DNA of 64,000 nt from Nitrospiraceae bacterium. Lineage in GTDB: Bacteria > Nitrospirota > Nitrospiria > Nitrospirales > Nitrospiraceae. How positions within the stretch are numbered: the stretch's first letter is position 1; each line of letters opens with the position of its first letter. Shown here in pieces: positions 22,242-40,030 of the stretch. A model generated the notes under the pieces. That model did not search any database, was not told the DNA's origin, and saw nothing but the letters and a program-made list of their open reading frames with translations. A program made the translations under genes and the position numbers. The stretch spans positions 62,001 to 126,000 of the forward strand of contig DASPUC010000022.1 in the NCBI GenBank assembly GCA_035623075.1, read 5' to 3'.

Positions 22242-22290
22242 ACCTGCTGGATGCCGGTTGACCGTCTAGAAATCATCGTTATTCAATAAG

Positions 22291-22447
22291 TGAGCGGAGG
22301 CCTCGGTGAGAGGAATACTCAAGGTAACCGGGGTCGAGCGTAGGGGCGGTGAGCAGGCCCGCCAGTAACGAGCGGGAAGCCTAAAACCCCTCGAAGACTC
22401 TACCATGTAGATGAAGCTCTCTGGACCCGCCTCCGCTCAGTTTTTTT
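22291..22447 (+). ncRNA. ssrS: 6S RNA with intrinsic terminator
   Basis: A roughly 150-base RNA is closed by a perfect 11-base stem: TGAGCGGAGGC at 22291-22301 and GCCTCCGCTCA at 22429-22439, followed by a seven-T tract at 22441-22447. The centre matches the most conserved part of 6S RNA: GGTGAGCAGGCCCGCC, a CCCGC/GCGGG hairpin, then GGGAAGCCTAAAACC, aligning with the enterobacterial GGTGAGCATGCTCGG, CCGAG hairpin and AGAAGCCTTAAAACTG. 6S RNA mimics an open promoter and sequesters the housekeeping RNA polymerase holoenzyme in stationary phase. The identification rests on motif memory and pairing read by eye. Confidence 0.8.
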
Positions 22448-22569
22448 GTATCCTTCCAACATTTCCCACTAAATGGGTGTTGCCTTTTGGAGACCTATTA
22501 GGAGGGGGAGCTTCGATCGTGTGATTTGATTTGAAACCGGTAGAATTTTCTGCGACGCGGGTAATCACA

Positions 22570-22800
22570 AAAAAACGGCCCTCCCTTCTGTGGAACACCG
22601 GACCTGCACGGGCCGGAGTCATGTCCGGCAACCCTTCAGTCGCCTGAGGCTGGCTGCCCCGCGCCTCAATCTTCGAACGGGCTCGCTTCTACTCAACGGC
22701 CGTGCCTAGTGGCACCGACGATTGATAGCGCGTCCCTCGGACCTCGACCCCGCAACGAACCAGGAACGGTGCCCTCTGCACGCTGGCTGCAGAAGGGCGA
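22570..22800 (-). ncRNA. Unrecognised structured RNA with terminator
   Basis: Downstream of the malic-enzyme gene, the minus strand can fold into several strong helices: outer stem CCCTTCTG/CAGAAGGG (22798-22791 with 22591-22584), an 11-pair helix GCGCTATCAATC/GATTGAGGCGC, a GTGCC-ACTA-GGCAC hairpin, GGCAGCC/GGTTGCC enclosing a GCGA-capped hairpin, and GCCGGA/TCCGGC. It ends with GGGCCG and seven U (22576-22570). No tmRNA, RNase P, SRP or riboswitch motif was recognised. A competing hairpin exists at the 5' end (CCCTTCTGCA with TGCAGAGGG). The 5' boundary is unknown and may extend into 22801-22902, which also contains a GAGGT-CGGCA-ACCTC hairpin. Confidence 0.55.
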
Positions 22801-22902
22801 GTCGAACACGTGAGGTTGCCGACCTCATTAGGCTCACGCCACCTCCTTCGATTTTTAGGTAATCACCTCCCTCAGGGAATCAATGTTTCTTTTTGCAACA
22901 GG

Positions 22903-24237
22903 CTACTTCGGTGGTGGGGAAACCAGCCCTTCCTTCATGAAGACACCCAGCCCGTCCCTTACGGTTCTAATCTTGATCGCTGCTTCCTCCATGAGCTGCT
23001 CTTTCGTCTTGTTCAATTGAGCCAATCCCTGTTCCTGCGCTTTGAGGGCGGCGGCGGCGGCGATTCTCGGTACAACGTGCCATTCTTGCATCGTGCAAAT
23101 AATGTTGTCTTCGTTGATACCCTGCTCTTCAGCGCAGGCAGCCAGTTCCATGGCCGCAGCGAGCGCCATCTCGTCCGAGATCGTACGGGCCCGCACATCC
23201 AGGGTGCCGCGGAAGATGCCAGGGAACACGAGTGAATTATTCACTTGGTTCGGGAAATCGCTCCGTCCGGTTGCCACGATCCTGGCCCCTGCTTCCCGTG
23301 CCTCCCAGGGCCAGATTTCCGGGATCGGATTGGCGCAGGCAAAGACAACAGCATCCTTGGCCATCGCCTTGATCCATTCAGCCTTGATAATCCCCCCCGC
23401 TGCGAAAGCGATACAGACATCCGCGCCCCGAAGGGCCTCTGCGATCCCGCCTCGCAGCTTGTCTGCGTTCGTTTCCTGGCAGACCTTCCATTGCTCGATG
23501 TAATCAGGGTTGTCTCGGTAATCCGCACGATGACTCCCAAGAATGCCTCCAAGGTCACAGGCCACGATCGAAGCCGGATCCGCTCCGTTTGCTTTCAAGA
23601 ATCGATACGTCGGCACGTTCGCCGCACCCATCCCGATCATCGCGATGCGAATGGTTCCCATCGGCTTGCCGACAATCTTCAGCGCATTGATCAGCGCGGC
23701 GAGCAGCACCGTACCGGTCCCCTGCTGATCGTCGTGCCAGACGGGAATGGTGCAGGCACGGCGGGCCTGCTCCAGAATGCGAAAGCACTTGGGCATGGCG
23801 ATGTCTTCGAGATTAATACCGCCGAAGGTAGGCTCAAGCAGCTTCACGGTTCTGACGATCTCATTCGGGTCTTTCGTGCCCAAACAAATCGGCACCGCGT
23901 CGACTCCGCCGAGATACTTGAAGAGCAATGCCTTCCCTTCCATAACCGGCAGCCCGGCCTCAGGACCGATATCACCAAGCCCCAAGACACGCGTGCCATC
24001 CGAGACGACGGCAATGCTGTTCGCCCGATTCGTTAGGTCGTAGACCAACCCCGGAGTCCTCTGGATATCCCGGCAAGGAGCGGCAACGCCCGGTGTGTAC
24101 CAGAGGGCAAAGTCGTCGAGACTGCGGATCGGGCATTTCGGGAATGTTTGAATCTTCCCCTTATAATGGGTGTGTAACCGCCGTGACTCTTCAGCCGGCT
24201 TCTGCGCCTTGGCCAGTAATTCCTCTTTAGTCGGCAT
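22903..24237 (-). CDS. Malic enzyme (oxaloacetate-decarboxylating malate dehydrogenase)
   Basis: 444 residues of the bacterial malic-enzyme family, converting malate to pyruvate and CO2 with NAD(P)H formation. The N-terminal domain has FALWYTPGVAAPC, GLGDIGPEAGLPVMEGKA and DAVPICLGT; metal and substrate residues lie in GGINLEDIAMPKCF and VWHDDQQGTGTV. The NAD-binding domain shows IAMIGMGAANVPTYRFL, VFACANPIPEIWPW and SDFPNQVNNSLVFPGIFRG. It lacks the phosphotransacetylase extension of the long forms. The stop is followed by a structured RNA; the upstream neighbour on the same strand is a Usp gene, 11 bases away. Cofactor preference is not decidable here. Confidence 0.94.
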   Translation of the reverse strand: MPTKEELLAKAQKPAEESRRLHTHYKGKIQTFPKCPIRSLDDFALWYTPGVAAPCRDIQRTPGLVYDLTNRANSIAVVSDGTRVLGLGDIGPEAGLPVMEGKALLFKYLGGVDAVPICLGTKDPNEIVRTVKLLEPTFGGINLEDIAMPKCFRILEQARRACTIPVWHDDQQGTGTVLLAALINALKIVGKPMGTIRIAMIGMGAANVPTYRFLKANGADPASIVACDLGGILGSHRADYRDNPDYIEQWKVCQETNADKLRGGIAEALRGADVCIAFAAGGIIKAEWIKAMAKDAVVFACANPIPEIWPWEAREAGARIVATGRSDFPNQVNNSLVFPGIFRGTLDVRARTISDEMALAAAMELAACAEEQGINEDNIICTMQEWHVVPRIAAAAALKAQEQGLAQLNKTKEQLMEEAAIKIRTVRDGLGVFMKEGLVSPPPK

Positions 24238-39060: not shown

Positions 39061-40030
39061 ACATTCCCTCTCTCGGTGAATCTCATGGCCGCGATAAATC
39101 GAAGCTCACTACAATACTTCCGTCCCCTGGAGCAATGGTTAAGAAACCCGCTTGCCATCCCCTATCATTCATCCGTCATTGTCGAACGGGCCAGGGCTTC
39201 AGGAATCTTGATCCGCTGCTTACTTGGTAGCATGACAGTCATCGGGCCAGTTTTCCCTGAAGACAAGGACTAGTCTTCTGGGGTGCGCCAGGATCAAATT
39301 GAGAATTGTTTATGGCAACAGCCTTAATCAGCACAGACCGTCCAATCAATAGCACGGGCCCCGGTAAGAACCATTTGGCAATCTGTCATCCACCCTGTCG
39401 ACATGCTAAATTTGTGCTAAAGAACAACGGAGAGTAGAGAGTCGAGAGGACCTACCGCAGCAAGCAGAAGTTTATCGGTCCTCGATTCCTTCGTTTAATC
39501 GACAAACCAGACGGAAGATCAGGCGGTTAGAGCACCGGGCACATCAGTCTCATTCCCAAACCCTCCTCCACCAGTAGCGAAATGGAAGCGCGCCCATTCC
39601 AACCGCCTTTATCAACTCGGCGCGAAAACGATAATTTCTCAACTACCTACACAAGAGCGAGACCATTCAAGTACCCCGATCTTATCTCCTCCTTCTCCTT
39701 GACTCCGGTGCCCCTGCAGTCTCCGGTGTTTTATCATCAATGTTGAAAGATTCCACAGTGCGCAAAGCAGTCCTGTCCTGTAACGCGACAGCTTGCTCCC
39801 AAGCCACCCCTTCCCCAATCCGACCAACTCCTTGAATCTGCAAGGGACACTGCCCTTTTCCGACATATCTGGCGCGTGGCATTACCGATGCACTTTCTCT
39901 GAGCGACAGCCAATACCAAACCGGCATATCGTCATGGTGAGTCACAATTACAGAGGTCATCGCTTGCTGGACCACGTCCTCATAAGGGAGCCACAGCAAG
40001 TATTCTTTCACACCAGAAGGAGGGAGTACC
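39061..40030. other. Long intergenic region between glgX and hsp20
   Basis: 970 bases between divergent genes. Several open frames occur, none with family features, a signal peptide or a convincing RBS. The last 26 bases can form a CTTTC/GAAGG hairpin (40005-40009 with 40016-40020) that would partly cover the hsp20 RBS. I see no repeat array, RNA motif or recognisable promoter in the rest. It is the second-longest gene-free stretch of the window and may carry decayed sequence. Confidence 0.45.

Follow-up and report, generated by a model that had tools for sequence, protein, structure and literature searches.

The window, i.e. the whole stretch of 64,000 nucleotides that was analysed, comprises genes for Usp (twice), a phosphoribosyltransferase, malic enzyme, pyruvate dehydrogenase E1/E2 and pyruvate kinase. 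To judge from these family names, the surroundings of the RNA element described here, termed RNA A, represent a setting of stress and carbon metabolism. The malic enzyme gene (22903-24237, minus strand, recognised by Pfam PF00390 and PF03949) is the upstream neighbour of RNA A and not part of it. Convergent with RNA A, a second 6S RNA (6S-B) lies on the plus strand at 22292-22448. The predicted transcript of RNA A runs on the minus strand from 22849 to about 22569 and would comprise approximately 281 nt, while the structured core, as matched by the covariance model R2 with 210.7 bits, comprises 229 nt (22573-22801). An earlier note had described the interval 22570-22902 as a multi-helix RNA of roughly 230 nt. 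This length agrees with the core; the first approximately 50 nt of the interval are promoter and upstream DNA. ARAGORN detected neither a tRNA nor a tmRNA in the window.

The stems of the minus strand and the seven-U tract noticed before are present as described, and their pairing is backed by covariation. The check for compensatory changes that had been proposed gave a positive answer: RNAalifold resulted in 62 pairs for 29 relatives aligned with MAFFT, 25 of them with compensatory changes, and in an alignment of 87 copies (84 distinct) changes on both sides were found for 49 of 57 pairs. Across the 84 distinct copies, 94.9% of the consensus pair cells were paired. The covariation score amounted to 0.491 compared to 0.253 after shuffling, with none of 500 shuffles reaching 0.491, and was at most 0.10 when the strands were slid against each other; none of the pairing and covariation measures of this alignment was reached by any shuffle. 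Since the 87-copy alignment was fitted to the covariance model, a structure-blind, APC-corrected scan of column pairs was run as well, which is only partly independent, as it used the same model-fitted alignment, and in which 13 of the top 14 covarying pairs were pairs of the RNA A structure. The 29-sequence MAFFT alignment, made without structure, yields the same helices, and the window copy forms 55 of the 57 consensus pairs. At the level of the sequences, the comparison shows that the core of RNA A is under selection for base pairing. Folded as a single sequence, the interval of the earlier note gave an MFE of -135.1 kcal/mol; with a z of -1.43 and 8 of 100 shuffled sequences folding just as well, this is not significant. 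The plus strand folded similarly to the minus strand.

The core is closed by the stem P1 (5' strand CUCGCCCUUCUG at 22790-22801, 3' strand CAGAAGGGAGGG at 22579-22590, both on the minus strand), for which changes on both sides were found in 11 of 12 pairs across the copies. Instead of the 8 pairs counted before, P1 comprises 12 consensus pairs, of which 11 are formed in the window copy, with one G-A mismatch. In helix 10 (22627-22658, minus strand), a hairpin with the stem GGCAGCC/GGUUGCC and a conserved loop, all 7 of the 7 pairs showed changes on both sides. Helix 8 (22702-22715, minus strand) lacks covariation of its own, because it is nearly invariant in all copies: the hairpin GUGCC-ACUA-GGCAC of the window hardly varies from the consensus GUGCC-NNUA-GGCAC. 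A GNRA cap, as claimed for one of the hairpins, could not be reproduced on a conserved hairpin. Helix 8 is probably a contact site, either tertiary or for a protein.

In a nucleotide search, 56 of 147 Nitrospiraceae genomes contained copies of RNA A, most copies showing an identity of 70-79% across 200-320 nt; the identity stops at the U tract, and the flanking sequences are unalignable. With the covariance model R1, built from 29 copies, RNA A was detected in 95 of 175 Nitrospiraceae genomes, representing 18 of 22 genera. R2, for which 87 copies were used, detected 126 copies in 94 of these 175 genomes. Every match lay inside Nitrospiraceae, for R1 in a 396-genome sample of the phylum as well as for R2 in a 270-genome search of the class, whereby very divergent copies may escape such many-genome searches, which ran with stricter filters. 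The window genome comprises only one copy, even with laxer filters. No copies were found in plasmids, phages or viral contigs, and two pattern matches elsewhere (a Gemmatimonadetes bin and Streptomyces) had no full-length model match and are probably due to chance. RNA A is absent from genomes that are near-complete on a single contig, e.g. G001, G032 and G060, and is therefore not essential. In the draft genome G070, five copies (L023, L114-L117) were found together with several copies of 6S-B, which may reflect an amplification or a mixed bin.

In a tree of the copies, three sub-types can be distinguished: type I is adjacent to 6S-B, type II is usually located 1-21 kb from it, and type III forms the third group. 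Since types I and II occur together in one genome, e.g. in N. defluvii, they are considered old paralogues. In Ca. Nitrospira defluvii (FP929003.1), copies of RNA A are located near 3,814,842 and 3,830,745. All eight type III copies (L100, L102, L105, L106, L107, L118, L120 and L127) could encode MTPPDKxxPLL or a peptide close to it, in a possible ORF of 11 codons, MTPP(D/G)K(x)(G/S)P(L/P)L, that has a Shine-Dalgarno sequence and ends in a UGA at the tip of P1. As the nucleotides of this ORF are nearly invariant, the peptide pattern is no proof of translation. Upstream of seven type III loci lies a same-strand gene which, recognised by eye, we take to resemble hemL (glutamate-1-semialdehyde aminotransferase).

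Upstream of the core, the conserved promoter TTGATT-N15-TTAnnT was observed. In the window, it consists of the -35 element TTGATT (22878-22883, minus strand) and, after a spacer of 15 nt, the -10-like element TTACCT (22857-22862, minus strand). The layout TTGAYN-N14-16-TTA was found in 66 of 84 copies compared to a mean of 0.6 in shuffled sequences, and the promoter spans 27 nt in 64 of these 66. In most copies a purine-rich sequence resembling GAAGGAGGUG begins 7-8 nt past the -10 element; it is present in 80 of 84 copies, while 23 were expected, and the 5' tail sequence was tabulated for 66 copies. Based on this conservation and distance, GAAGGAGGUG (22840-22849, minus strand, with the putative +1 at 22849) probably represents the 5' terminus of RNA A. 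It is followed in type I copies by the leader hairpin P0, UGAGG-UCGGCAA-CCUCA (22811-22827, minus strand), with modest covariation and 3-4 supported pairs.

At the other end, P1 runs almost straight into a tract of seven U (22569-22575, minus strand), which resembles the end of an intrinsic terminator, and a U-rich tract past P1 was found in nearly all type I copies. With the U residues directly after the stem that closes the core, termination of RNA A seems to rely on P1 itself. This 3' end escaped a simple terminator scan, as P1 encloses the entire RNA instead of forming a short hairpin. As read from the letters, RNA A has its own promoter and a terminator-like end, as is characteristic of a stand-alone sRNA gene. 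A protein-coding gene was rejected: no conserved reading frame was found in the core of 45 copies, most frames being interrupted by stops in most of them, and the core lengths differ by non-triplet changes.

The comparison with Rfam 15 resulted in no match for the whole window at the gathering cut-off, and for RNA A in none up to an E of 10; the copies of types II and III gave no match either. This finding agrees with the earlier statement that no known family could be recognised. The sole permissive match, to Legionella LPR10 with 16 bits, lies on the plus strand over the 6S-B region and not on RNA A. Similar in size class and likewise closed by a stem of the 5' and 3' ends are tmRNA, RNase P RNA and SRP RNA, but their models do not match RNA A and their copies sit elsewhere in the genome, all above the Rfam cut-off. 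The 6S RNA (SsrS, RF00013) shares with RNA A the stand-alone nature, the long closing stem, the own promoter and the stress context, and is physically linked to it within Nitrospiraceae. In contrast to 6S RNA, which forms one long hairpin with a bubble at its centre, RNA A comprises a multibranched core and is devoid of the signature GAAGCCUNAAA; RF00013 does not match it, and the model R3, built from 6S-B, matches only 6S-B in the window, so that RNA A was rejected as a 6S RNA. OLE, GOLLD, ROOL and HEARO are large structured bacterial noncoding RNAs that were found by comparative genomics. Like RNA A, they combine a complex covarying fold with a function that is not evident from the context, whereas RNA A is smaller, restricted to one family, associated with 6S RNA and without a match to an Rfam 15 model. 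A limited literature search found no report of RNA A.

Altogether, the missing Rfam match, the strong covariation, the own promoter and the terminator-like end support the proposal of a novel sRNA. RNA A is probably a stand-alone structured noncoding RNA gene of Nitrospiraceae that acts in trans (minus strand, 22569-22849, approximately 281 nt). It looks like a family new to description; its broad kind, the stand-alone structured noncoding RNA, is already known.

The convergent 6S-B was matched by R3 with 160.6 bits and shows a covarying long-stem structure along with the weak match to LPR10. Its long interrupted stem carries GGUGAGCAGGC...GGGAAGCCUAAAACC. Based on this structure and on the signature of E. 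coli SsrS, we take it to be a 6S RNA, with RF00013 staying below the cut-off. As a 6S RNA, 6S-B would be predicted to bind sigma70-RNA polymerase and to take part in pRNA synthesis. A further 6S paralogue of the genome (L031, contig C43, G000:C43:31033-31107) scored 35.4 bits with RF00013, i.e. under the cut-off of 46.4, and 6S-B was not reported by this model. Annotation based on Rfam would therefore miss both 6S paralogues of the genome. At three loci (L005, L013 and L018), 6S-B lies approximately 1.6 kb from RNA A, and the conserved noncoding stretch in between resembles a diverged 6S RNA.

With R3, 118 copies of 6S-B with at least 100 bits were found in 99 of 175 genomes. Both RNAs occurred in 79 of the 175 genomes, RNA A only in 15, 6S-B only in 20 and neither in 61. 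6S-B is on the same contig for 93 of 126 RNA A copies, within 35 kb for 91 of these 93 and within 1 kb for 61, all counts being raw and uncorrected for relatedness or draft contigs. Copies of types II and III do not, as a rule, lie directly beside 6S-B. Malic enzyme, in comparison, is located immediately upstream in no more than about 14 of the 84 distinct copies. A position downstream of malic enzyme, as noted before, therefore holds true for the window and not as a general context, most copies being linked to the second 6S RNA; since the genomic contexts differ between loci, malic enzyme was rejected as a functional partner.

The promoter of 6S-B (TTGACC-N15-TTATTC, 22258-22284, plus strand), the layout of which was the same in 36 loci, has the same architecture as that of RNA A. 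In addition, a dyad element, CTGYCCTNTNNNGCNACAG or its reverse complement, was observed approximately 30-50 nt upstream of the -35 element, common to 6S-B and type II RNA A. The corresponding pattern CTGY-N11-RCAG was found in 13 of 34 6S-B promoters and 5 of 19 type II promoters, with 0.13 expected in each case. The shared dyad CTGYCCTNTNNNGCNACAG is likely to be the site of a regulator. A further copy, CTGTCCTGTAACGCGACAG, is located at 39773 in the window.

The best reading of these data is that RNA A would be a trans-acting structured RNA co-regulated with the linked 6S-B. Transcription would start at about 22849 and proceed to about 22569, stopping upon formation of P1 in front of the U tract. 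Under stress or starvation, RNA A would be co-expressed with 6S-B and would act in trans as a folded scaffold, with a protein or some large machinery of the cell as its binding partner. As GAAGGAGGUG is Shine-Dalgarno-like and complementary to the 3' tail of 16S rRNA, it is tempting to assume that the 5' tail of RNA A and this 3' tail form a duplex, by which RNA A would hold or reshape the 30S subunit while 6S-B holds RNA polymerase; this is a guess of rather low probability. Of similarly low probability is its extension, in which RNA A would be the translational counterpart of 6S RNA, its 5' end mimicking a perfect ribosome-binding site and capturing 30S subunits in starvation; a dedicated second 6S RNA, co-encoded and co-regulated with RNA A, would capture RNA polymerase. 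The predicted duplex of both tails amounts to -16.4 kcal/mol compared to -9.5 kcal/mol for shuffled sequences, and no covarying internal partner of the 5' tail was found within the core. The tail is predicted to be only moderately accessible, with a mean unpaired value of 0.47 compared to 0.34 for the whole RNA. Alternatively, the purine-rich 10-mer may function in the initiation of transcription or be used by a protein or by another RNA.

The position of P1 immediately 5' of the U tract would also fit a cis-regulatory leader, i.e. a riboswitch or attenuator in which P1 halts downstream transcription, controlled by a ligand or by translation. The overlap of the possible 11-codon ORF with P1 in type III and a same-strand gene approximately 100 nt downstream in several type III copies point in this direction, but most type I copies face the convergent 6S gene instead of a same-strand gene, and the downstream genes vary between loci, with no consistent same-strand gene among them, which makes this explanation unlikely. 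A little less likely still is a regulation of the neighbouring 6S-B by RNA A through convergent transcription or RNA-RNA pairing. While 52 of the 61 close pairs (below 1 kb) are arranged tail-to-tail and both RNAs start with a GGAGG-type purine sequence, 8 close pairs lie on the same strand, many RNA A copies are 5-35 kb away from 6S-B, and in the window the predicted 3' ends are more than 100 nt apart. For the label 'ribozyme-like', specific support was not obtained: a ribozyme or self-processing RNA would agree with the large multibranched fold, the invariant hairpin and the invariant stretches, but with no match to a ribozyme family and no sign of a cleavage site or a mobile host it is highly improbable. 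Even more so is a repeated or mobile element without host function, since the up to five copies in one genome and the patchy presence are opposed by deep compensatory evolution, a conserved promoter, three old paralogue clades, a recurrent genomic setting and the absence from the mobile elements searched.

In bacteria, large structured RNAs that covary strongly often prove to have specialised roles. RNA A is old within a family that is central to nitrification, gene-like, present in three paralogous forms and tied to a second 6S RNA. Its covariance model would annotate over 120 loci that are without an Rfam family. Furthermore, RNA A gives a concrete entry to the shutdown and restart of gene expression in slow-growing, often starved bacteria.
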